33,384 bases of DNA. It comes from Flavobacteriales bacterium. Lineage in GTDB: Bacteria; Bacteroidota; Bacteroidia; Flavobacteriales_G; Salibacteraceae. The notes below the pieces were generated by a model, which saw only the letters and a program-made list of their open reading frames with translations, was not told the origin of the DNA and did no database searches. Positions 2,542 through 27,396 of this stretch are shown here, piece after piece; within the stretch, counting starts at the first letter, position 1; each line of letters begins with the position of its first letter. Made by a program: the position numbers and the translations under genes. The DNA lies in NCBI GenBank assembly GCA_020435995.1, contig JAGQYO010000039.1, positions 1 through 33,384 on the forward strand, written 5' to 3'.

Positions 2542-3576
2542 ATGAAAAGAATTAAACAATCCATAATTGTTTTGGGCTTAACCCTAGCTATAAGCTCTTG
2601 CCACAGCGACCAAGCAGAAAAACCTGGAGGTGGAGGAAGTGCCTTGCAAGTTGAAGCATATAAGGTTGTTGCCCAGCCTTTTAACAATGAGTTGGTCACC
2701 ACCGCTAAATTGATTGCCGAAGAGCAGGTAGAACTAAAGGCCCCAATGGCGGGCCAAGTTTTGGCTATTTATTTTAAAGAAGGGGAAATTGTAAATAAAG
2801 GTCAAGCACTTATTCGCATCGATGACAGGAGTTGGAAAGCGCAATTACTAGGTGTACACGCTGAATTGGTTGCAGCTGAAAAGGATTTGGCACGCAAAAA
2901 AGAACTACTAACAGTTGAAGGCAGCAGCCAGGAAGAAGTGGATAATGCTTTTTCTAGGGTGGAGATTTTAAAATCGCAAGAACAACAGTTGCAGGTAAAT
3001 ATTGATTTAGCCAATGTTTCTGCACCGTTTTCAGGTCAATTGGGTATGAGAGATTTTAGTGAAGGCGCATTTTTAAAACAAGGTGATTTAATTACTACGC
3101 TTTCGGCCAACAAACAATTAAAAGTGGATTTTACTCTTGCACAAATGCATTCAAAAAGCATTGAAATAAATAAACCAGTGCTGGTATTAATTGGAAAAGA
3201 TACGCTTGTGGCTAATGTATATGCTATAAATCCGATTATTAATTCCGAAACTAGAACACTAAATGTAAGAGCTTTATTACCTCAAAAGGCAGAAGGAAAA
3301 ATAAAACCGGGCACTTTTGCCGAAGTTCTAATTGCCACAGACGTGGTTAAGGATGCTATTTTGATACCGACACAAGCCATAGTTCCATCTATTAATGAGC
3401 AAACAGTTTATATAAGCAAAAATGGAAAGGCAGTACGCCGAGTGATACAAATGGGAAATAGAAACGCTGATAATGTGTTGGTACTTGACGGCCTCGATGT
3501 GGGCGATACTGTAATCACAACAGGATTGTTGCACATCAAAGAGGGTATGGATATCCAAATTCAATCAATTCAATAA
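2542..3576 (+). CDS. RND efflux periplasmic adaptor (membrane fusion) lipoprotein
   Basis: A 344-residue HlyD/AcrA-type membrane fusion protein. The N-terminal signal ends in a lipobox with Cys20 (LAISSC), so the mature protein is probably lipid-anchored in the periplasm. A biotinyl-lipoyl-like half (LKAPMAGQVLAIYFKEGEIVNKGQ, about 60-85) is followed by a helical hairpin (about 95-155), the second lipoyl half (NVSAPFSGQLGMRD), a beta-barrel domain and a membrane-proximal domain. It bridges the inner-membrane RND pump and the outer-membrane TolC channel encoded next to it. It begins directly after the marR stop and ends 9 bp before the pump gene. Confidence 0.93.
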   Translation: MKRIKQSIIVLGLTLAISSCHSDQAEKPGGGGSALQVEAYKVVAQPFNNELVTTAKLIAEEQVELKAPMAGQVLAIYFKEGEIVNKGQALIRIDDRSWKAQLLGVHAELVAAEKDLARKKELLTVEGSSQEEVDNAFSRVEILKSQEQQLQVNIDLANVSAPFSGQLGMRDFSEGAFLKQGDLITTLSANKQLKVDFTLAQMHSKSIEINKPVLVLIGKDTLVANVYAINPIINSETRTLNVRALLPQKAEGKIKPGTFAEVLIATDVVKDAILIPTQAIVPSINEQTVYISKNGKAVRRVIQMGNRNADNVLVLDGLDVGDTVITTGLLHIKEGMDIQIQSIQ

Positions 3577-3585
3577 TTGTAGTCC

Positions 3586-6500
3586 ATGACATTATCCGAA
3601 ATAAGCATAAAACGTCCGGTTTTAGCCACTGTATTTGCCATTATATTTATTCTACTTGGCGTGGTTGGCTATCTGTCGTTGGGCGTGCGAGAATACCCAA
3701 GTGTGGATCCACCCATTGTTACCGTACAAACCAATTATACAGGAGCCAATGCTGAAATCATAGAAGAGCAAATTACCGAACCTATTGAAGAGCAAATCAA
3801 TAGTATTGATGGCATTAAAACATTAAGTTCAAACAGTACCGATGGTAGAAGCACCATCACCGTTGAGTTTTTACCTGAAATAAACCTAAACGACGCTGCC
3901 AACGATGTAAGAGACAAAGTATCAAAGGCTATCAAAACCTTACCACCAGATGCCGATCCGCCAACGGTAAACAAAGCTGATGCGAATGCCGAAACCATTC
4001 TATCTATTACAGTGCAAAGTGAAAAGAGAGGTTTGCTGGAACTAACGCAAATAGGAAACAATATTTTTAAAGAACGCCTTCAAACCGTGCCAGGCGTGAG
4101 TAGTGTTCGTATTTGGGGTGAAAAAAAATATGCCATGCGCTTGGAATTAGATCCCACCAAAATGCGTGAATTAAACATTACGCCAATAGACATTAAAACG
4201 GCTCTAGCTGCTCAAAATGTGGAATTGCCATCAGGTAGAATTGAAGGAAGCGAAACAGAATTAACGGTAAGAACGGTAGGTCGCTTATCCACCGTAGAGG
4301 AGTTTAATGATTTAATTATCCGTCAGGTAGGAAATACCTTAATACGATTAAAAGATGTGGGCTCAGCTCGTTTAGGGTCCGAAGCAGAGCGGACTTTATT
4401 GCGAGGAAATGGCGTTATTCCCATGGTGGGCATTGCCTTACAGCCTCAACCAGGCTCCAATTCGATCGAAATTGTTGATGAAGCATTTCGAAGGTTAGAA
4501 ATCATGAAGAAGGATTTGCCTCCTGACATTGTATTGGACGTAGCTATGGACAAAACCATTACCATTCGCAATGCTATTAGCGAAGTTAAATCAACAATTC
4601 TACTGGCTTTTATTTTGGTACTGATGGTGATTTTCTTCTTTTTAAGAAATTGGAGAACCACATTAATCCCAGTGATATTAATTCCGATAGCCCTTACCGG
4701 AACATTTGCAGTGCTGTATGCAGCAGGTTTTAGCATCAACATTCTTTCACTACTGGGCTTGGTTTTGGCTACGGGCCTAGTAGTAGATGATGCCATAGTG
4801 GTAATGGAAAACATCTACACTAAAATTGAAGCTGGAATGCACCCGATGAAGGCCGCTTTTGAAGGTTCGCGTGAAGTGTTTTTTGCCGTATTGGCTACAT
4901 CAATCACATTGATTTGTGTGTTTTTGCCTATCTTTTTTATGCCCGGTTTAACGGGACAACTGTTTAGAGAATTTGCTATGGTGGTAGTTGGAGCCATTGT
5001 TATTTCAACATTTGTTACGCTATCGTTAACGCCCATGATGAGCTCTAGGTTATTAAAAAAGAGTAAAAAAGAGAATGGGTTGATGCGTGTATTTAGCCGA
5101 ATTGTTGAAAATGCGACGAGGTTCTATTCGTCTTCACTTCAAAAGTTTATGGCTAAACGGTGGTTAGCCTTTCCTATTTTTATTCTAATGCTGGCAAGCA
5201 TTTTTGTGGTAGGTTCTCAATTAAAATCCGAGTTAGCGCCTATGGAGGATAAAAGTCAGTTGAGGATTATTTCATCTGCGCCAGAGGGGACATCTTTTGA
5301 AGCCATGGATAACTACCAGGTGAAGCTCATGCAGATGATGGATACCGTGCCAGAAAAAGCATTTTTGTTAGGAGTAACATCGCCAACATTTAGAGCTTCT
5401 ACTGCCGCAAATTCTGCATTTATTTTTATGCCTTTAAAACCCCCAACCGAACGGAATAAATCTCAAGATCAATTGGCCAATGAAATAAACCAACGGTTGC
5501 GAGGGATGACCTTCGCGAGGTCATTTGTAGTACAAGAAGAAACCATCAATACAGGTGGAGGAGGCGGTGGTAAGCTGCCACTTCAATTTGTATTGCAAGC
5601 ACCCGATTTAGACCGGTTAAAAAAAGTGCTACCCGCATTTATGGATAGTGTTCAAAATAGTCCTGTATTTTCGGTTTCACAAGTAGATTTAAAATTTAAT
5701 AAACCAGAAATTACAGTTGCCATTAACAGAAATAAGGCTTTGTTGATGGGCGTTAGCGTAGCCGATATTGCGCAAACACTTCAAACATTTTTAAGTGAAG
5801 AACGCCTCGGGTATTTTATTAAAGATGGCAAACAATACTACGTCATTACCCAGGCTAATAAGGAAAAGAAAGATGAGCCATTGGATCTAAACTACGTTAC
5901 GGTTCGCAACCATGGCGGCGAAATGATTACGCTTGATAACCTTGTTGATATTGAATTTGATAGCCGCCCTCCTTCATTATTGCGCTACAATAGATACACT
6001 TCTGCAACCATTGAAGCGGCTCCAGCACCAGGGTATACCATAGGCGATGGTATTGATGAAATGAGGAAAATTTCAAAAGAGGTGCTCGACGAATCTTTTA
6101 GCACCGAATTGGCGGGAAGCGCATCCGATTTCGCGGAGAGCTCGCACAGCACTACGCTCATTTTTATATTCGCTTTGATATTGGTTTACCTAACCCTCTC
6201 AGCACAGTTTGAAAGCTTCAGAGATCCGCTAACCATTATGCTCACCGTTCCATTGGCATTAGCAGGAGCAGTCCTTACGCTTTGGGCCTTTGATCAAACC
6301 TTAAATATTTTCAGTCAAATTGGAATGATTGTATTGGTGGGTATTGTCACCAAAAACGGGATTTTAATTGTAGAATTTGCCAACCAGAAAAGAGATGCAG
6401 GAATGACAGTTCAGGAAGCGGCTTACGAAGCTGCTTCACAACGATTTAGACCCATTTTAATGACCAGTTTGTCCACAGTGTTGGGTGCCTTGCCTATCGC

Positions 6501-6663
6501 TCTTGCCTTAGGAAACTCATCTACCAGTAGAATGCCGATGGGCTTAACTATTATCGGAGGCTTAATTCTTTCGCTAATCCTTACCCTGTATGTAATTCCT
6601 GCACTTTATTCATATATCGCCAGCAAAAAAAACACAGTTATAGATGAAGCAGATTTTAATTAA
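3586..6663 (+). CDS. RND family multidrug efflux transporter permease (HAE1 type)
   Basis: At 1025 residues this is full length for an AcrB/MexB-like pump. It has the opening ISIKRPVLATVFAIIFILLG (TM1), two large periplasmic loops and about twelve membrane helices. The proton-relay residues of the hydrophobe/amphiphile pumps are present: the Asp pair D401-D402 in TM4 (GLVVDDAIVVMEN) and K923 in TM10 (GIVTKNGILIVEFAN). These separate it from metal-type CzcA/CusA pumps. It expels drugs, detergents or similar compounds using the proton gradient, and the exact substrates are unknown. A Gly-rich loop (TGGGGGGK) lies near residue 655. The 3' end overlaps the tolC-like gene by 20 bp. Confidence 0.95.
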   Translation: MTLSEISIKRPVLATVFAIIFILLGVVGYLSLGVREYPSVDPPIVTVQTNYTGANAEIIEEQITEPIEEQINSIDGIKTLSSNSTDGRSTITVEFLPEINLNDAANDVRDKVSKAIKTLPPDADPPTVNKADANAETILSITVQSEKRGLLELTQIGNNIFKERLQTVPGVSSVRIWGEKKYAMRLELDPTKMRELNITPIDIKTALAAQNVELPSGRIEGSETELTVRTVGRLSTVEEFNDLIIRQVGNTLIRLKDVGSARLGSEAERTLLRGNGVIPMVGIALQPQPGSNSIEIVDEAFRRLEIMKKDLPPDIVLDVAMDKTITIRNAISEVKSTILLAFILVLMVIFFFLRNWRTTLIPVILIPIALTGTFAVLYAAGFSINILSLLGLVLATGLVVDDAIVVMENIYTKIEAGMHPMKAAFEGSREVFFAVLATSITLICVFLPIFFMPGLTGQLFREFAMVVVGAIVISTFVTLSLTPMMSSRLLKKSKKENGLMRVFSRIVENATRFYSSSLQKFMAKRWLAFPIFILMLASIFVVGSQLKSELAPMEDKSQLRIISSAPEGTSFEAMDNYQVKLMQMMDTVPEKAFLLGVTSPTFRASTAANSAFIFMPLKPPTERNKSQDQLANEINQRLRGMTFARSFVVQEETINTGGGGGGKLPLQFVLQAPDLDRLKKVLPAFMDSVQNSPVFSVSQVDLKFNKPEITVAINRNKALLMGVSVADIAQTLQTFLSEERLGYFIKDGKQYYVITQANKEKKDEPLDLNYVTVRNHGGEMITLDNLVDIEFDSRPPSLLRYNRYTSATIEAAPAPGYTIGDGIDEMRKISKEVLDESFSTELAGSASDFAESSHSTTLIFIFALILVYLTLSAQFESFRDPLTIMLTVPLALAGAVLTLWAFDQTLNIFSQIGMIVLVGIVTKNGILIVEFANQKRDAGMTVQEAAYEAASQRFRPILMTSLSTVLGALPIALALGNSSTSRMPMGLTIIGGLILSLILTLYVIPALYSYIASKKNTVIDEADFN

Positions 6664-7957
6664 AATAGCAGCCATCATATTGGTTTTTATGGTGAACGAA
6701 ACTTCGGCTCAATCACTTCAAGAGATGATAAGTACCGCTTTGGAGAATAATTATCAAATAAGAATAACTAAAAACGAAGCGCAAATTGCAGCAAACAACA
6801 ATGTACTTGGCAACACGGGCGCATTACCAACAGTGGATTTAATAGGAACACACTCCAATTCGTACAACAATACGGTTCAAAAGTTTGCGGATGGCACCAT
6901 TAGGGAAGGAAACAACGCTAAGAATACGAACCTCAATATGGCGGCAATGGCAAGTTGGACCGTTTTTAATGGTTTTCGTGTGTTTGCCAAACGCGATCAA
7001 CTGGCTTATCTATATGAACTAGGTCAGCTCAACTCCAAGTTTTACATTGAGCAAACGGTATCGGACGTGGTAACGGCTTATCACCAATTGGTGTATGAAG
7101 AAGATCTCATTAAAAACTATGAGCAATCCTTAGCGATATCTTCATTTAGGCTTGGTGTTGAGCAAAAAAGAAAGGAAATAGGAGTAGGCACGGTGATGGA
7201 CTATGGTCAAGCCTTAGTTGATTACCAAACGGATAGTATTCGGTTATTGACACAATTGAATACCATAAAAGCTTTGAAGATCAACCTAAATGAGGCGCTA
7301 AATACCGAATTAGAAAAAGAAATAACAGTGAGTGAAGACGGATTTAGGGTCATGCTGATGCCAAATAAGGATACTTTATTGAAGCGGGTAGAAGAGGCTA
7401 ATAATCAGCTTGAACAACAACGCTTGCAAGAGTTAATCGCCGAAACCGAATTGCGTATGGAAAAAGCCAATCGCTATCCAAAAATTGATTTATTTGCTGG
7501 GTACCAATATTCGAAAACCACATCTGCCGTTGGCTTTTTTAACTCCAACCAAAGTTATGGGCCCACTTTTGGCGCAAGCATTAGTTTTAACCTTTACAAG
7601 GGTGGGGAAACACATCGCAGGGTAAAAAACACTGAACTTTTTACGGAAAACACTGCCCTGACCAAACAACAGGTGAACAAGCAAATAAACGCGGACGTAC
7701 TCAATTTTTACAACGAATACAACTCAATCTCCTCTCAAATTGTATTGGCCAAAAGCAATGTTGACGAAATGAATAAAGTATATAGAACCGCTGAGGAACA
7801 ATTAAAAAAAGGTGCTATAAATGGTTATGACTTTAGGTTGACCCAACTGAGGTTGTTAATGAGTAAATTAACCTTAATACAATTAGAATTTTCGCTTAAA
7901 ACTATTGAAATTAACCTCAATCGTCTTTCGGGGCGCGTGTTGGAAGCCTACATCTAA
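6644..7957 (+). CDS. TolC family outer-membrane efflux protein
   Basis: A 437-residue protein with a signal peptide (MKQILIKIAAIILVFMVNET, cleavage after SAQ) and the two-fold repeat of long coiled-coil helices typical of TolC/OprM channels, for example EITRLQ-like heptads around 170-260 and 340-435. FNGFRVFAKRDQLAY (about 105-120) and FNLYKGGETHRRVKN (about 315-330) are the paired family motifs at the start of each helical half. It forms the outer-membrane exit duct for the pump encoded upstream. Its start codon lies within the last codons of the pump gene, so translation is probably coupled. No convincing terminator lies in the 15 bp before the convergent kinase gene; only a 4-bp stem is present there. 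Confidence 0.93.
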   Translation: MKQILIKIAAIILVFMVNETSAQSLQEMISTALENNYQIRITKNEAQIAANNNVLGNTGALPTVDLIGTHSNSYNNTVQKFADGTIREGNNAKNTNLNMAAMASWTVFNGFRVFAKRDQLAYLYELGQLNSKFYIEQTVSDVVTAYHQLVYEEDLIKNYEQSLAISSFRLGVEQKRKEIGVGTVMDYGQALVDYQTDSIRLLTQLNTIKALKINLNEALNTELEKEITVSEDGFRVMLMPNKDTLLKRVEEANNQLEQQRLQELIAETELRMEKANRYPKIDLFAGYQYSKTTSAVGFFNSNQSYGPTFGASISFNLYKGGETHRRVKNTELFTENTALTKQQVNKQINADVLNFYNEYNSISSQIVLAKSNVDEMNKVYRTAEEQLKKGAINGYDFRLTQLRLLMSKLTLIQLEFSLKTIEINLNRLSGRVLEAYI

Positions 7958-16468: not shown

Positions 16469-18910
16469 ATGATTTCTAGGCTTCTAACTATTCTATTTAT
16501 TTGCTTTTATTCCATGGGAATGGCACAAGGACGTCCAGGCGGTAAGGGCAAAGGTGGTGGCCTAGAACAAATTAAGTACTCTGTTCTAGGTAAATTACAA
16601 GATCCCGATCACAACGAAATCCCTTACGCCTCCATAGTATTATACAATTCCAATGACTCAAGTGTAGCGGGTGGGTCTGCTTCTAATGAAAATGGGTACT
16701 TCGAAATATTGGTTCCAAATGGGCGCTATTACTTACAGGCCAGTTTTTTGAGCTACGAAACCCACACCATTTCTGGGTTGGAGGTTTCTGATGCCGACAT
16801 CAACCTAAAGACCATTGAAATGACACCTTCGGCAAAGGCTTTAGAAGAAATAGTGGTAGAAGCCGAAAGACCTCAGATGGAATTGAAATTAGACAAGCGC
16901 GTCTTTAATGTAGATAAGGATCTTACCAATAGAGGCCGAAATGCGGTTGATATTCTCGAAAACATTCCATCGGTAAATGTTGACGTGGAAGGTAATGTGA
17001 GCCTGAGAAACAGCCAGAATGTTAGAATTCTCATTGATGGAAAACCCTCCTCATTGGTAGGTGCAAGTGGAAACGATGCGCTTCGCATGTTACAAGGCGA
17101 TCAGGTTGAAAAGATTGAAATCATCACTAATCCGTCGGCGCGCTACGATGCTGAGGGCGAGGTGGGCATCATTAATATTGTTTTAAAGAAAAACAAATCA
17201 AAAGGATTTAATGGATTATTTGAGCTCAGGGGAGGATATCCCAACATGGCAGGTGCCTCATACACACTCAATTATAGACAAGACAAACTCAACCTGTTTA
17301 CGGGTTATGGTGTGAATTACAGAGAAAGACCTGGATATGGTACCAATTACCACCGATTTGATAAACCAGACACAACATTTGGTTACACATCAGAGCGAAA
17401 ACACAGCCGGAATGGCACCAACCAAAACTTTAGAGCCGGCGCCAGCTATGATTTCAACAAGTACAATTCTGTGAGTTTGGCGGGCGATTATTCCATCGGA
17501 AAGGGAATGAACAACGCCCAATTGATATACAATGACTTTGATATCTATGGCGAGTTTACACAAACCTCTGATCGAAACGAAGAAGAATACCAAGAAAACT
17601 CAAACGGAAGTGTCAACTTCAATTACACCCGACTATTCAAACGAAAAGAAATGAAGTGGACCGTGGATGCAAGTGCTTATGGTAGTTTTAGTTTTGAAGA
17701 TGCCGATATTGTGGAAACCAGTACCAATCCAGTAATCTCACCTTTAATTCAAACAGCCAGTACAGTTGAAAACGAGCAGAATAGGTTGGTTCAAACGGAT
17801 TTTATCATGCCAATAGGCAAAGAAGGGAAATTTGAAACCGGAGGTAAAATGAACCTGCGAACCATTAACAACGATTATTTGGTAGAGGAGCTGCAAGGTA
17901 CGGGCTATGTGGCGCTTCCCAATTTGGACAATCAAATGATCTATACCGAGAACATTTACGCCGCTTATATTATGGCTGGTAATAAAACCGGAAAAGTTTC
18001 GTACCAAGCGGGTTTAAGAACTGAATATTCTGATATTAAAACAGATTTTAAAAGAACCAATGAAGTAAACCCACGTGATTATTTAAGCCTTTTTCCAAGT
18101 GCTAATTTGTCTTATGAATTCAAAAAAGATCAATTCCTACAATTGAGTTACAGCAGGAGAATATCGCGGCCTCGGCACTGGTTTCTTTTTCCCTTTTATA
18201 ACTTAAGCGACAACAGGAACATATCAATGGGAAACCCAAATTTGAACCCCACCTTCACCGATGCGTTTGAAATTGGATATATGAAAAAATGGGAAAAAGC
18301 TAACCTCCTAATCAGTCCTTATTATAGATATTCAACGGGCCTAACCGAGCGAATTTTATTGGCTGATACCAATGGAATTAGTTACAGGTTTCCCATCAAC
18401 CTAGGTTTTGGAAATGCTTATGGTTTGGAGCTTTCGGGCAGTTATGACCTTTCAAAATGGTGGAACCTCAACGGAAGTTTTAATTTTTATAGACAAACTA
18501 CCGACGGAAATTATGAGGGCCAGCGCTTTTCTTCCGACACCTATGCTTGGACAACCAGAATGGTGAGCAAATGGTCGATAAAACGTGTTTTTTCGTTTCA
18601 AGCATCGCTCAATTACAATTCAAAAGAAAAAACCACCCAGGGCGAGCAACTCGCAAGGTATAATGTGGATTTAGCGGCTGCGCTCGACATGCTGAAAGGA
18701 AAGGGAACCTTAACCTTAAGCGTAAGAGATTTGTTTAATACCAGACTTAGAAGAAATATCACTTATGGACCCGATTTTTATGACGAATCGGAGTTTCAAT
18801 GGATGTCTCGTTATGGGCAACTCACTTTTAGTTATCGACTCAACCAGAGTAAGAAAAGCCAGAGAGGCAATGGTAGCGGGGACTTTGGTGGGGGAGACAT
18901 GGACATGTAA
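16469..18910 (+). CDS. TonB-dependent receptor, outer-membrane beta-barrel family
   Basis: An 813-residue outer-membrane protein. The signal peptide (MISRLLTILFICFYSMGMAQ) is followed by a carboxypeptidase-regulatory-like domain (about 35-105: LGKLQDPDHNEIPYASIVLY), then a plug (about 125-235: VDILENIPSVNVDVEGNVSL, RILIDGKPS, VEKIEIITNPSARYDAEG). A 22-strand-type barrel rich in alternating aromatics follows, ending at LTFSYRLNQ and a Gly/Asp-rich tail. The architecture matches the OMP_b-brl_3 group of Bacteroidota, whose substrates are mostly unknown. No SusD partner is adjacent, so a glycan-utilisation role is not suggested. The 132 bp upstream shows no clear promoter consensus. Confidence 0.9.
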   Translation: MISRLLTILFICFYSMGMAQGRPGGKGKGGGLEQIKYSVLGKLQDPDHNEIPYASIVLYNSNDSSVAGGSASNENGYFEILVPNGRYYLQASFLSYETHTISGLEVSDADINLKTIEMTPSAKALEEIVVEAERPQMELKLDKRVFNVDKDLTNRGRNAVDILENIPSVNVDVEGNVSLRNSQNVRILIDGKPSSLVGASGNDALRMLQGDQVEKIEIITNPSARYDAEGEVGIINIVLKKNKSKGFNGLFELRGGYPNMAGASYTLNYRQDKLNLFTGYGVNYRERPGYGTNYHRFDKPDTTFGYTSERKHSRNGTNQNFRAGASYDFNKYNSVSLAGDYSIGKGMNNAQLIYNDFDIYGEFTQTSDRNEEEYQENSNGSVNFNYTRLFKRKEMKWTVDASAYGSFSFEDADIVETSTNPVISPLIQTASTVENEQNRLVQTDFIMPIGKEGKFETGGKMNLRTINNDYLVEELQGTGYVALPNLDNQMIYTENIYAAYIMAGNKTGKVSYQAGLRTEYSDIKTDFKRTNEVNPRDYLSLFPSANLSYEFKKDQFLQLSYSRRISRPRHWFLFPFYNLSDNRNISMGNPNLNPTFTDAFEIGYMKKWEKANLLISPYYRYSTGLTERILLADTNGISYRFPINLGFGNAYGLELSGSYDLSKWWNLNGSFNFYRQTTDGNYEGQRFSSDTYAWTTRMVSKWSIKRVFSFQASLNYNSKEKTTQGEQLARYNVDLAAALDMLKGKGTLTLSVRDLFNTRLRRNITYGPDFYDESEFQWMSRYGQLTFSYRLNQSKKSQRGNGSGDFGGGDMDM

Positions 18911-22239: not shown

Positions 22240-22385
22240 CGCTTTAAAAAGAGCGCGAAGTAAGGCAATTTGTGGATATCAGAGTTTTATTAAATCATGT
22301 AAGGAGGTCTTTATTGAGGTGATGTAACTTTTTTGGAAGTTAGGGTTCTTACCTATTGGAAGGACTTATTTTCGAAACAGGAATT

Positions 22386-22934
22386 ATGAAAGAACGCAGT
22401 GTCAGATTTTTAAAGCTTTATGAACCCATACACGAGGCATTTGCGCGCTTTTGCCATGCTAAAGCTTATGGTGTATTAGAGGCCGAGGATCTTATCTCTG
22501 AGAGTGTTTTGTTAGCCCTGGAGAATTTGCACAGGCTAAAACACGATGAGGCATTTCTATCATTTATGTTTTCAATTGCACGCAACATTGTCAACAACAA
22601 ATACCGAAGGCTAAAATTCATGGGCGTTTTCAATAAAAACGAAGTGGCTCTAATGAAGGATGAAGGTTTGAATCCGGAAATGAAGCATGACATAAGCGTT
22701 CTTTATTCTTGTTTGAATATGCTGCCATCGGTTCAAAAAGAGGCTCTTATTCTCTTTGAAATTAGCGGATTCTCTATTAAAGAAGTCGCTGAAATACAGG
22801 GTTCGGGTGAATCTGCGATAAAACAACGCCTCAAAAGAGGCAGGGAAAAACTGGCAAAAATACTTAAAGCGGATCGCTTGGCCCATGAATCGCTCAACAA
22901 TAGGTCTTCCATTTTATTCACAATGTTTTTATGA
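22386..22934 (+). CDS. ECF-type RNA polymerase sigma factor
   Basis: A 182-residue sigma-70 family factor with only regions 2 and 4. Region 2 covers about 10-80 (EAEDLISESVLLALENL, FLSFMFSIARNIVNNKYRR). Region 4 covers about 110-160 with a helix-turn-helix (FSIKEVAEIQGSGESAIKQR, then LKRGREKLAKIL). The upstream TTG at 22356 would add ten residues lacking family character, so the ATG at 22386 is preferred. Its stop overlaps the start of the next gene (ATGA). That arrangement is typical of a sigma/anti-sigma pair. Target promoters are unknown, and no repeated upstream motif was found. Confidence 0.9.
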   Translation: MKERSVRFLKLYEPIHEAFARFCHAKAYGVLEAEDLISESVLLALENLHRLKHDEAFLSFMFSIARNIVNNKYRRLKFMGVFNKNEVALMKDEGLNPEMKHDISVLYSCLNMLPSVQKEALILFEISGFSIKEVAEIQGSGESAIKQRLKRGREKLAKILKADRLAHESLNNRSSILFTMFL

Positions 22935-24784
22935 ATCAAAAGGGAAAAGATATGCACGCAAAAACACCAGAGTTTTACTTTAGAACAGCTCAACAGCTGC
23001 CATTGGTTATGGACTTAGACTCAATTAGAGAATTGATAGATCTGAGAATCACCAAGCAAATAAAAGCTCCAAAAAGTAGACTAGGTGCTGATTATTGGAA
23101 CCTCAATACTCTACTCATCACGGGGATGTTGCTGGGTACCGCTGGTGCAGCTAGTTTGTGGTTTGGAATGAGCCAAAACAATGTTGTCGCTCAATACACC
23201 TCGAATCATCAAATTCCTGAAGTTAAAATGATACCACTGCTCGCTGAGCAAGATGAAGCAGAGCGAAGTATTGAAATAGAGCAAGAATTTGTAGCTGAAT
23301 TGAAGGACCGAAAACACTTTGAGGAAAAAACCATTGAAAGTCAGCCGCTTGCAACCCATTATGGTAATAAGGTATCCAATGAAAAGCGAATAAAAAGCTC
23401 AACACAAGAGGAGCAGGGTTCGGTATGGTGGCCAAAAGAGGGGAGTAGCAAACTAGAAACTAAGTTGATTGAGAAGGAAGGCGCGGCAACACCCAAGCAG
23501 AAGGAGCCTAAAAAAGAAGTTTCTGGTATTATAGGAGACCATAAGGTGCTGGTAAAAGAATTAATGCTCGACGGCAACTCTTGGTTCAAACTGGTTAGCG
23601 ATGGTGGCTCGGTGACGATCAAAACATGGAAGGAAGCGAAAGTAAAGCTGACTGCACAGGTTTCGATTGAAACCAAGGACAGAGGCGAACAAGCAGAGGC
23701 TTTGGCTGATTTCGACCTGGGACTTGAAGCAAAAGGTGATCAAATTGAAGTGATAAACAAATGGAAACCGGATGGTAAATCTTCATGTGCATGTTCCTTC
23801 AAAAACACCAAAATTGAAACGTCGGAGGGGAATACTATCAAAATAAAAAACACGGAAATTCACTACGAAGTGTTTGTACCAGAGGACATGAACCTAAACC
23901 TGAAAAACAATTATGGTAAAATAGAAGTTCCCGATATGGGTGGTTCTCTCAGGGTCAACTCATTTCAAGGGGAAATTAAGATCGGTAAAATTGCCAAAAA
24001 CTTGGATCTCATTGCCCGCTATGGCCATGCTTATATTGACGGGGCCGAAAGCGCTAGCGTTCAATTGTTTCAGCAAAATGCTTCACTTGGTGCGGTTAAA
24101 ACTATTGATCTGAATGCCAAATACTCGAAGGTGAGCCTGATAAGTGCGGAAAACATGGAGCTAGTGGCTTTTCAAAGTGATATTAACCTGGAGCGAAATG
24201 GGCAAAATGCCTCGCGAATTGAAGGTAGCGTGAAGTATGGCAAACTCTTGTTCAAAGAAGATGTGAAGCAGGCCGATTTGAGCTTTTTTCAGTCAGAATT
24301 TGAAGCTCGAAACATAGATAGTCTCATTTTCAAGGGTTCATATAGCAAGATTAAAACGAAGCTAATACTTGTTGCTGTCTTTCATAAATCATTTCAGGAT
24401 AACTATCAGATACACAGCGTTAAAAGTATTTTTGGTAAAACCAAATATACAAGTATCGACATAGAGCAATTAGGCTCAAATTTGTCGATTGAAAGTTTTC
24501 AGGGAAGCATTGATGTAGGGCAAGTTCAGAGAAATTTTGAGTTGCTTAAAATTGACTCGAAATACACCCCAATTGATGTAGGATTTGACCCAACATCGAA
24601 ATATCGCTTAGAAGCAAATACCAACTATACAACACTTCAATATCCAAAAAAGGATTTCACGGTGGAGTATAGCCGCAACGAAAACCAGCAGCTGACCTTA
24701 CGAGGTACGTATAATGAACCCAGCTCTCGCAAGCCTGGATTGGTGCAGATAAATGGATTTGAAGGTAGGGTAGAGCTCCGGTAG
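22931..24784 (+). CDS. One-TM protein with extracytoplasmic beta-helix-like repeats, probable anti-sigma factor/sensor
   Basis: 617 residues in four parts. A short cytoplasmic N-terminus (1-57) contains an amphipathic helix (MDLDSIRELIDLRI). One TM segment lies at about 58-80. A charged Lys/Glu-rich linker covers about 100-205. The C-terminal region of about 390 residues resembles DUF4097-type beta-helical domains. From Tyr328 to Tyr545 it shows alternating Y-x-K-[ILV]-like and F-Q-x-x rungs every 16-22 residues: YGKI, FQGE, YGHA, FQQN, YSKV, FQSD, YGKL, FQSE, YSKI, FQDN, YTSI, FQGS, YTPI. ATGA overlap with the sigma gene and the membrane topology suggest that it holds the sigma factor and senses the envelope. 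The N-terminus lacks a recognisable zinc-binding anti-sigma motif, so this role is inference. Confidence 0.7.
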   Translation: MNQKGKDMHAKTPEFYFRTAQQLPLVMDLDSIRELIDLRITKQIKAPKSRLGADYWNLNTLLITGMLLGTAGAASLWFGMSQNNVVAQYTSNHQIPEVKMIPLLAEQDEAERSIEIEQEFVAELKDRKHFEEKTIESQPLATHYGNKVSNEKRIKSSTQEEQGSVWWPKEGSSKLETKLIEKEGAATPKQKEPKKEVSGIIGDHKVLVKELMLDGNSWFKLVSDGGSVTIKTWKEAKVKLTAQVSIETKDRGEQAEALADFDLGLEAKGDQIEVINKWKPDGKSSCACSFKNTKIETSEGNTIKIKNTEIHYEVFVPEDMNLNLKNNYGKIEVPDMGGSLRVNSFQGEIKIGKIAKNLDLIARYGHAYIDGAESASVQLFQQNASLGAVKTIDLNAKYSKVSLISAENMELVAFQSDINLERNGQNASRIEGSVKYGKLLFKEDVKQADLSFFQSEFEARNIDSLIFKGSYSKIKTKLILVAVFHKSFQDNYQIHSVKSIFGKTKYTSIDIEQLGSNLSIESFQGSIDVGQVQRNFELLKIDSKYTPIDVGFDPTSKYRLEANTNYTTLQYPKKDFTVEYSRNENQQLTLRGTYNEPSSRKPGLVQINGFEGRVELR

Positions 24785-24785
24785 G

Positions 24786-25436
24786 CTAGTCTACATAGCC
24801 ATGCTGCACGGCATACTTTACAAGGCCGGCCACGTTGCGCACGCCGAGTTTGCTGATTAAATTCTTGCGATGAGTTTCTACCGTATGATGGCTGATAAAG
24901 AGCTTAGCGCCGATTTCATGGGTGGTGAGTTCTTGGGCAATGAGCTTGAGTACATCAATTTCTCGGTCGGTTAGTTCAATGTTGATGGCTTGGGTTGATG
25001 GTTTTTCTTGCCCGCGCAAACTCTGCATAATGGTATGAGTTACTGCACTTGAAAAATATGACTGGCCGCCGAAAACAGTCTCGATAGCCTCTACTAACTC
25101 AGTTTTACTGGTGTTTTTAAGAACATAACCATGAGCCCCTGCTTTCAGTACTTTTTGAATGTAATCGGACGTGTCATACATGGTTAACATCAGAATTTTT
25201 ATCTCTGGATACAATAACTTTACCTGTTCGGTAGCCTCAATGCCATTCATTTCTGGCATATTCACATCCATCAGAATGAGATCAGTGGGTGTAGTTTTTA
25301 AAATTTCAAGCAGTTCGACTCCATTTTTGGCTGTGGCCGTTACGCTTATACCTTGGGAGCCATTGAGTATTTCAGATAGCCCATCAGCAAAAATCTGATG
25401 ATCATCCGCTATCGTGATCCTAATCGTTTTGTTCAT
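24786..25436 (-). CDS. NarL/FixJ (LuxR-type) DNA-binding response regulator
   Basis: A 216-residue regulator. The receiver domain has the acidic pair DD (11-12), phospho-acceptor D57 (LILMDVNMPEMNG), Thr in MLTMYD and Lys in VLKNTSK. The LuxR-type helix-turn-helix is at about 150-205 (LTDREIDVLKLIAQELTTHE, HHTVETHRKNLISKLGV). It overlaps the kinase gene by 17 bp and is the last gene of the operon. A palindrome at 28737-28752, upstream of the operon promoter, is a candidate binding site. It is convergent with the beta-helix gene: only one base separates the two stop codons. Confidence 0.93.
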   Translation of the reverse strand: MNKTIRITIADDHQIFADGLSEILNGSQGISVTATAKNGVELLEILKTTPTDLILMDVNMPEMNGIEATEQVKLLYPEIKILMLTMYDTSDYIQKVLKAGAHGYVLKNTSKTELVEAIETVFGGQSYFSSAVTHTIMQSLRGQEKPSTQAINIELTDREIDVLKLIAQELTTHEIGAKLFISHHTVETHRKNLISKLGVRNVAGLVKYAVQHGYVD

Positions 25437-27396
25437 CCGCTTTCAATGGAATTTCAATAATAGAAATTGTTCCCTTATAAGGCATAGAATCGATGTGATA
25501 AGTACCGTGAAGTTTTTTAGCTCGGTTATTAAGGCTGATCAATCCCATACCCATTTTTTTGTTCTTTTTCTCAGGATCGATTCCAATACCATCGTCTTCC
25601 ACGGTTATCCGCAGTTCGTTTTCTGTTTTGTTGATTTGAAGAGTTACATTTTTAGCCCGTGCGTGTTTCAGTATGTTATTAAAAATCTCTTGGAGCATTC
25701 GGTAAATTTCAATAGCAACAATCGATTCGAGGCGATTTTCCATGCCATAAACCAGCATTTTTACCTTTACAATCTCACTTTTGTTAATGCTTTCGCATAA
25801 TTCTTCAGCCGCCATTACGAGGCCAAAAGAAGCTACAACGCCTGTATTGAGGTTGTGCGAAATCTGCCTAACTTCCTTTACGGCCTCATCAATCAGTTTA
25901 TTGGCTTTGTTGTAGCGTTGTAAGCTTTCTTGTTTTTGTTCATCGAGTTTGCTTTCTAAAGATCCAAAGAGCAGTTTAATGGTGGCAAGCATTCCTCCCA
26001 AGCGGTCGTGCAGATCTGAAGCAATACGCTGCCTTTCATATTCCTGTGCTTCAATCATGGCGTTATTGGTTCTAATCTCCTGGTCTTGAAGCAGGTTGTC
26101 GATTTTCTCATTGGCCAAAGCTTGGTTCTTTTTGGCAATTCGAAATCGATTCACAAAAAAGAAGACCAAAAAAGCAATGGATAGGAGGAGTACGATGCTT
26201 CCGGCAAGCAAGAAATTTCGTTGGGCTGTTTTGGTTTTATTAGATTGTTCCAATAAGGCTAGCTGGCTTTCTTTAGTCTCCAAATCATATTTCGTTCGCA
26301 TTTTGGCAATGCTGTTCACCTTTTCGACATTGAGCAACGAGTCGTTTAAGTTTGAAAAGCGAACATGGGCGTGGTATGCGTCAAGAAAATCATGTTTAGA
26401 AGCGTAAGCTTCCGACAGAAATTCGTAACAGCGAGCCGAATTAGCGATGTCTCTCATTTCTTGAAACATAAATAGCGCTTCATTTAGCAATGAAATAGCA
26501 GTATCTGGTTTGTTTATGTTTAGCCACAGTACGGCCATATTGAACTTCACTAGGGCTATTTGGTCGAAGGCTCCCAGCGATGCGTTTTCTTCCAAAGCTG
26601 AGGTGTAATAAGCCATCGCCATTTCAGGATCACCCAGAGCTTCATAACACAAGGCTATGTTGTTGGCACAAATGGCTTTTCTCGCCCTATCTTTTGAGCG
26701 CCGAATCCGACTATCCGCGAGCAGAAAGTAGTTAAGTGCCTCGTCGTAATCACCGTAGTTATAATAAAAATTCCCCAGTCCGCTGCTGCCCAAAAATTCA
26801 CCTTCTACATAGCTAATTTGTTCAGATAACTTAACACCCAATTGATAGTATTCCAGCGCCTTAGCCGAGTCGCGATAGGTTACATTGAAATGCCCCAGCT
26901 CATAATACAGCGAAATTATTAAGTGGGAGTCTGACGCGCTGATAGCGTATTTAAGCCCGTTTAATAGGGTATGGTACGCAGAATCTATTTCGCCAATCTC
27001 CTGTTGTACGTAATTCAGTTCAACACAAGTATAAGATGCCCCTACAAAATCGTTACTCTTTTTTCGAATTTCGAGGCTTTGATTTAAATACAACAGCGCC
27101 GAATCGTTTTTACCCCATCGGTTCAAAATAGAACCTAGGCGATATGCTGCATACCCAATACCTCGCGTGTAATTCTTTTTTAAAGACAGCGTGTAAATCT
27201 CTTGCGCAATGGTGTAGGCGGAATCGGGGTCATATACCTGTAAATCGTATGCCCGATCGATTAACGAATCAATTTTTAATGAATCGCTTATTGAAATGGC
27301 AGAACTAGACCCATAAAACAGGATTAAGGAAAAAGATATCACGATCTTAATCCCCAACCCTCTTATGTTATTGAACGGCTGGTTTTTCATCATCAT
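25420..27396 (-). CDS. TPR-containing sensor histidine kinase (HisKA_3)
   Basis: A 658-residue kinase. The signal peptide (about 1-33) is followed by a periplasmic array of tetratricopeptide repeats (about 35-350; for example GIGYAAYRLGSILNRWGKND and AICANNIALCYEALGDPEMA). One TM segment is near 394-416, then a coiled coil (about 417-450), a HisKA_3 domain with His463 (RQRIASDLHDRLGG), and HATPase_c (EIFNNILKHARAKN, VEDDGIGID, GMGLISLNNRAKKLHG). Intact motifs indicate an active kinase for the overlapping NarL/FixJ regulator. TPR sensors of this sort probably read protein or peptide partners. Its start overlaps the stop of the unknown gene upstream (ATGA), so that protein may be its partner. 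Confidence 0.92.
   Translation of the reverse strand: MMMKNQPFNNIRGLGIKIVISFSLILFYGSSSAISISDSLKIDSLIDRAYDLQVYDPDSAYTIAQEIYTLSLKKNYTRGIGYAAYRLGSILNRWGKNDSALLYLNQSLEIRKKSNDFVGASYTCVELNYVQQEIGEIDSAYHTLLNGLKYAISASDSHLIISLYYELGHFNVTYRDSAKALEYYQLGVKLSEQISYVEGEFLGSSGLGNFYYNYGDYDEALNYFLLADSRIRRSKDRARKAICANNIALCYEALGDPEMAMAYYTSALEENASLGAFDQIALVKFNMAVLWLNINKPDTAISLLNEALFMFQEMRDIANSARCYEFLSEAYASKHDFLDAYHAHVRFSNLNDSLLNVEKVNSIAKMRTKYDLETKESQLALLEQSNKTKTAQRNFLLAGSIVLLLSIAFLVFFFVNRFRIAKKNQALANEKIDNLLQDQEIRTNNAMIEAQEYERQRIASDLHDRLGGMLATIKLLFGSLESKLDEQKQESLQRYNKANKLIDEAVKEVRQISHNLNTGVVASFGLVMAAEELCESINKSEIVKVKMLVYGMENRLESIVAIEIYRMLQEIFNNILKHARAKNVTLQINKTENELRITVEDDGIGIDPEKKNKKMGMGLISLNNRAKKLHGTYHIDSMPYKGTISIIEIPLKADEQND

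Follow-up and report, generated by a model that had tools for sequence, protein, structure and literature searches.

We examined a 33,384-nucleotide contig of a Flavobacteriales bacterium (JAGQYO010000039.1, assembly GCA_020435995.1), referred to here as the window, in which a gene for an extracytoplasmic function (ECF) sigma factor (22386-22934) is followed on the forward strand by a gene for a 617-residue protein (22931-24784), referred to as the partner. A preliminary description, made from the DNA letters alone, had presented these as an ATGA-coupled pair in which the second product crosses the membrane once. Both points were confirmed, as the two open reading frames (ORFs) overlap by ATGA and one transmembrane (TM) helix is predicted in the partner, at residues 58-81. 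The features of the locus are as follows.

22323..22352, forward strand: putative sigma-dependent autoregulatory promoter, TGTAAC-N19-CTTAC (-35 like, 22323-22328; -10 like, 22348-22352)
22386..22934, forward strand: ECF sigma factor gene (182 amino acids from the ATG at 22386; 192 from the TTG at 22356)
22952..23101, forward strand: residues 8-57 of the partner, its inner (cytoplasmic) segment, with the motif YFxxAxxLPxxxSxxxVxxLV and proposed as a minimal anti-sigma domain
23102..23173, forward strand: single TM helix, residues 58-81, a helix in the AlphaFold2 model
23174..23524, forward strand: low-complexity, predicted periplasmic linker, residues 82-198, predicted local distance difference test (pLDDT) mostly under 50
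23525..23860, forward strand: N-terminal beta region of the predicted Toastrack domain, residues 199-310, with modelled strands and structural matches from residue 199
23861..24781, forward strand: predicted right-handed beta-solenoid, residues 311-617, pLDDT over 90 for most of 311-560

The sigma protein matched Pfam Sigma70_r4_2 (50.8 bits, cut-off 25.7) and Sigma70_r2 (25.3 bits, cut-off 24), and with only regions 2 and 4 in about 180 amino acids it is, by its sequence, of the ECF type. Two orthologs showed 64% and 57% identity to it. On the other hand, the Pfam scan of the partner gave nothing credible, with neither an anti-sigma nor a FecR domain detected. Its inner segment, at which AlphaFold2 placed two helices with low confidence (residues 13-21 and 29-41), also had no Pfam match and no Cys within residues 1-57. 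Neither the HxxxCxxC motif nor a recognisable four-helix class I anti-sigma domain (ASDI) was identified in the partner, only two helices preceding the TM helix; the earlier statement that the 57-residue cytoplasmic part has no zinc-type anti-sigma domain thus held. Positive charge is higher before the TM helix (10 K+R vs 7 D+E) than after it (6 vs 13), which under the positive-inside rule indicates an N-in orientation; therefore, the solenoid should be outside and is predicted to be periplasmic.

Recurrence of the pair and exchange of its outer domains

The preliminary description had proposed that the pairing be sought in other genomes, and it was found in both directions. A single-protein scan of genome contigs with the partner identified no relatives; an alignment of the sigma factor succeeded instead and returned 51 loci from 84,980 species genomes. 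In all 28 separate loci (the window, L031-L056 and L059) a partner frame lies directly downstream of the sigma gene. In L031-L056 and L059 the gap between the two genes ranges from -43 to +37 nucleotides and the partner has one TM helix, except in L034. The partner frame of L034 is broken in the TM-linker stretch (L034:5030-5330) and its ORF was called from +281, which could be an assembly error or decay; in L032 the contig ends inside the partner. A 29th sigma relative is fused to its partner, with sigma factor, inner motif, TM helix and a Glu-ladder solenoid in one 734-residue ORF (L057:1105-3306). Three records are duplicates (L057 of L005, L031 of L002 and L037 of L003), and the more distant matches L058 and L060-L081 were left out of the pairing count.

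Starting from the partner, nearly all relatives in a genome search had a sigma gene nearby. At E <= 0.001 the profile of the inner segment alone matched 40 of the 395 genomes sampled from the class. In 29 of the 30 fetched loci a same-strand sigma gene immediately precedes the partner, and the remaining locus starts at a contig end; several of these 30 repeat earlier loci, so that not all are independent. Three-gene systems, made of a sigma gene, a TM protein of about 180 amino acids and a secreted DUF4097-like protein (most of L004 and L006-L030, but not L022), were set aside as related but distinct in layout. In one paired locus, L047 (record CP034120.1, titled Glaciecola amylolytica), the sigma gene falls very near those of Fluviicola in the tree; perhaps the record is mislabelled or the locus was transferred. 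Our search of open-access literature found no description of this sigma/partner pairing, although it may be listed in the main ECF reclassification. Its recurrence across the phylum, with varying outer parts on one type of inner segment, suggests a widespread and undescribed mode of ECF sigma control.

What stays constant among the partners is the inner segment, which is conserved over 21 proteins with different outer domains, at least six types of which were found on the same inner module. These include the Y/F solenoid of the window, WG repeats (L039), a CHU_C type IX sorting domain (L049), DUF2807 (L056) and DUF4097 (L123), and further partners have CBM_4_9 or Por_Secre_tail. The same inner module with other outer domains across Bacteroidota marks the class, at the level of sequence, as modular. 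In the sigma tree, on which the outer-domain labels were assigned partly by eye, the Y/F-solenoid group forms one clade (99/97), while DUF2807 needs two changes and FGE three. Sigma-linked partners with an FGE outer domain occur in L042, L043, L045-L048, L052, L116 and L120-L122; that of L043 has sub-threshold similarity to GldK/GldJ, and FGE-type partners are suggested to be linked to type IX secretion or gliding. The hydrophobic C-terminal tail of the window sigma factor, RSSILFTMFL (22860-22934), is conserved in the Y/F-solenoid group and absent from most other sigma relatives.

A putative promoter, TGTAAC-N19-CTTAC, was identified 63 nucleotides upstream of the sigma ATG. The pattern TGT[AC]AC-N19-C[ATC]TA is present within 150 nucleotides upstream of 28 of the 29 sigma genes, against 0.02 expected from shuffles, and it lies at -45 to -63 in 26 of them and at -143 in two. 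Since autoregulation predicts exactly such a site, the pair is probably autoregulated. The other matches checked in the window genome were in coding frames or misplaced, so that only the sigma gene's own site stands in promoter position. In other genomes the site was detected upstream of a CarbopepD_reg gene (L161, genome G182; a strong second match of 31 bits), a DUF5686 gene (L165), an OMP_b-brl_2 gene (L169) and a different sigma gene (L168). We claim no shared regulon, because the examined orthologs of the L161 and L169 genes carry no site.

With such a promoter, the partner could be nothing more than a target gene that an autoregulated sigma factor transcribes along with its own, the solenoid being structural or adhesive with no role in control. 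The conservation of the operon promoter would suit this, as would the resemblance of the outer domains to adhesin-like and GldK-like surface proteins. However, conservation is confined to the inner segment and the TM helix, and the outer part changes from partner to partner, which is the opposite of what is expected for a structural target, and among the close relatives examined the sigma gene never occurs without the partner. We regard this explanation as improbable.

Among the other genes of the window, a NarL-type response regulator and a TPR histidine kinase (24786-27396, reverse strand) are convergent to the pair; the stop codon of the regulator is one base from that of the partner. An efflux set of the resistance-nodulation-division type (HlyD-like, AcrB-like and outer membrane efflux proteins) lies at 2542-7957, and an OMP_b-brl_3 TonB-like outer membrane protein is encoded at 16469-18910, about 3.5 kb upstream of the pair.

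The solenoid and its corner ladder

The preliminary description had counted thirteen alternating Y and F-Q motifs between residues 328 and 545 of the partner, with a spacing of 16-22 residues. All thirteen were found, in strict alternation (Y328, F345, Y364, F380, Y398, F414, Y436, F453, Y471, F488, Y506, F523 and Y545) and with every F followed by Q, and all thirteen aromatics are invariant in a three-way alignment with two orthologs (34% and 28% identity). In 20,000 residue shuffles the longest alternating chain was 5, or 9 with FQ shuffled as an intact pair.

An AlphaFold2 model of the partner, built from an 11-row alignment, predicted the solenoid confidently. Residues 199-461 of this model matched the adhesin-like structures 3lyc, 3ljy, 3jx8 and 4opw (Z 15.3-16.1, root-mean-square deviation (rmsd) 2.7-3.1) and 4qrk (Z 13.7), and the top structural match of the model was 7muc_AM (Z 17.4). 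Toastrack unifies DUF4097, DUF2154 and DUF2807 (PMC11237479; PDB 4qrk, 4opw, 3pet and 3ljy), and Ravi et al. (PMC11237479) give 4qrk and 4opw as example structures of the domain. Thus, on the model, the partner solenoid is of the known Toastrack (DUF4097/DUF2807) fold. The window partner itself has no DUF4097 or DUF2807 match above the Pfam gathering score, while its sister partners L022, L123, L056 and L124 do pass one or the other cut-off; PDB sequence searches with profiles of the N-segment and of the solenoid returned nothing credible. The window protein differs from described Toastrack domains in having more rungs plus the corner ladder described below, and in lying below Pfam detection. 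It differs in location as well, as an intracellular one is argued for Toastrack (PMC11237479) and the topology of the window protein predicts a periplasmic one. The loop of its N-terminal Toastrack region, which is disordered in the model, carries a C-x-C pair (C286/C288, 23786-23794) that is kept in most Y/F-solenoid orthologs and could possibly have a redox or metal role.

The solenoid had been expected to hold two stacked aromatic ladders, and this part needs rewording. Each rung turns at a corner of two residues, [Y/X]-[G/S/T], which starts at the Tyr and, in the next rung, at the residue after the Phe. The Tyr and the residue after the Phe each precede a small residue (mostly G/S/T) and then, two positions further, a hydrophobic one (mostly I/L/V), and the Tyr-to-X spacing of 17-18, except for two loops of 21, is more regular than the Tyr-to-Phe spacing. 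The ladder in the window protein is thus made of Tyr 328, 364, 398, 436, 471, 506 and 545 alternating with Gln 346, 381, 415, 454, 489 and 524, with a Phe standing one residue ahead of each Gln. Judged by sequence, the homologous ladder is a mixed Tyr/Gln one, preceded at a distance of one residue by a ladder of Phe, for which "two aromatic ladders" is still a fair description, and from strand parity the Tyr/Gln and Phe residues should face in opposite directions.

The residue after the Phe changes between orthologs as a block. Over the six F rungs it reads QQQQQQ in the window and L031, KKKKKK in L033, RRRRRR in L034 and L035, QQQQQN in L036, KKKKQK in L037, HHHHQR in L038 and EEEEEE in L057. 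Its identity within a protein is 0.86, compared to 0.24 +/- 0.04 after shuffling columns among the proteins, and other columns around the Phe are at or near chance. Further sequences agree. Those fetched later have QHQQQQ (L101 and L102) and QQQQQQ (L103, whose genome may be identical or very close to that of the truncated L032), and the more distant L004 has EEEEEE. For all 13 proteins the within-protein ladder identity is 0.85, against a maximum of 0.45 in 20,000 shuffles. A parsimony count on the topology of the sigma tree gives at least four switches of the ladder residue among the orthologs. For other Toastrack proteins, a heuristic scan suggests that Tyr alternates with Phe (L010) or Ser (L022) and that His is used as well (L007).

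Such uniformity could arise from recent gene conversion or duplication of rungs rather than from selection on the ladder, as the solenoid repeats with a period of two rungs, about 35 residues. However, recent copying is hard to reconcile with the chance-level within-protein identity of the columns other than the ladder. The codons of the ladder Arg also vary between rungs (AGA, CGT, CGA and CGC); rung copying is therefore disfavoured, and we consider it very improbable. The block-wise change of one ladder residue over six rungs is an unusual evolutionary pattern which points to a defined binding face.

Proposed anti-sigma function and comparison with known systems

The conserved operon, the inner module, the swapped outer domains, the promoter, the fold and the ladder pattern were all computed here. 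We propose, with a probability of roughly 0.7, that the sigma factor and the partner form one signalling unit in which the partner is an anti-sigma factor, with a periplasmic sensor that can be exchanged and with proteolytic release; the binding and inhibition of the sigma factor, the sensing in the periplasm and the release by proteolysis are what we infer. The sigma factor would drive its own operon from TGTAAC-N19-CTTAC, and the partner would be a single-pass, N-in membrane anti-sigma factor, whose inner segment of about 45 residues and two helices would retain the sigma factor at the membrane, its sigma2 and sigma4 regions arranged inactively as with the class II factors CnrY and NepR. The Toastrack solenoid would be the periplasmic sensor, acting via its periodic corner ladder (Tyr/Gln in the window protein), and a signal on the envelope side would free the sigma factor, probably because the partner is cut within or close to the membrane, as in the RsgI and RseA systems.

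For a joint model of the sigma factor with the N-segment, the two genes of L033 were translated through the TAA stops that separate them. The N helices had pLDDT 75-87, and the best match of the modelled sigma factor was RpoE in its complex with NepR (Z 14.7, rmsd 3.6 over 159, with no sigma-alone control), followed by SigW-RsiW and CnrH-CnrY (Z about 12), while the rmsd to SigH bound to RNA polymerase was near 27. This fits a class II-like anti-sigma domain in the inner segment. The inner-segment profile also aligned weakly to the N-termini of middle genes from three-gene sigma operons (hhalign probability 71%), and one such middle gene has a sub-threshold match to an NCBIfam anti-sigma family.

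Several points weigh against the anti-sigma proposal. The compact modelled sigma fold could be an AlphaFold default, the best structural match (5uxx) is also the closest PDB sequence to the sigma factor, and SigW-RsiW, a class I complex, scores as well as CnrH-CnrY in the comparison. No sequence match of the inner segment to CnrY or NepR was detected, and the promoter-site searches of the window genome and of other genomes found no regulon beyond the operon.

The sign of the control could also be the reverse, with the partner as a positive regulator or a membrane tether whose inner segment activates or positions the sigma factor, as the FecR N-terminus does for FecI. The genomic and architectural evidence shows a functional link and not its sign, and the natural sigma-TM-solenoid fusion also suits a tethered factor. 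Against this, the joint model resembles inhibited sigma factors, subject to the reservations given above, and no FecR domain was detected in the partner with Pfam. A positive role seems to us unlikely, if somewhat less so than a partner without any role in control.

Returning to the anti-sigma proposal, the preliminary description had envisaged an undescribed class of transmembrane anti-sigma factors with a solenoid as its sensor. This stands in that the pairing recurs with no known anti-sigma domain; the anti-sigma role itself is the reading that we consider most probable, and the solenoid turned out to be only one of at least six outer types. More tentatively, at less than even odds, the pair may represent an undescribed Bacteroidota anti-sigma class with a two-helix inner domain of about 45 residues on freely exchanged periplasmic sensors. 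On this reading, sensing in the solenoid branch would go through the corner ladder, and the residue after the Phe, uniform over the rungs of one protein and changed in concert during evolution (Q, K, R, H or E), would encode specificity for a ligand of repetitive structure.

In Bacteroidetes no more than about 6% of the ECF sigma factors have a class I anti-sigma factor nearby, compared with 32% when all phyla are taken together, and how the remaining ones are controlled is an open problem (PMC7406223). The inner-segment module is a concrete candidate for part of that gap, and the sensors found on it include GldK-like and type IX sorting domains.

With regard to FecI/FecR, the partner has no FecR match and the scanned immediate neighbours are not TonB receptors. 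NepR is a soluble protein, and CnrY is not known to have a large sensor domain. The likeness of the window pair to these class II systems (PDB 4cxf and 5uxx; PMC8103513, PMC7406223) would lie in the short inner segment with its two predicted helices and in the predicted sigma2/sigma4 arrangement. The fused locus L005/L057 joins a sigma factor, a TM helix and an extracytoplasmic domain, as the known membrane fusions of ECF and anti-sigma factors do (IutY/ECF243, ECF48, ECF52 and ECF53; PMC8999054), but with a different anti-sigma segment and a Toastrack outer domain. In the SigI/RsgI systems of clostridia and bacilli (PMC6056542, PMC12203970) the sigma gene is likewise in an autoregulated operon with that of a membrane anti-sigma factor, which has an inner sigma-binding part, one TM helix and an extracellular sensor that varies between members. 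The window family, with its swapped outer domains and shared promoter, resembles these systems in working plan only; neither an RsgI-type domain nor a SigI-type sigma factor was detected with Pfam and NCBIfam. SigI is not a typical ECF sigma factor, and the window pair belongs to a Gram-negative envelope and has a different set of sensors.
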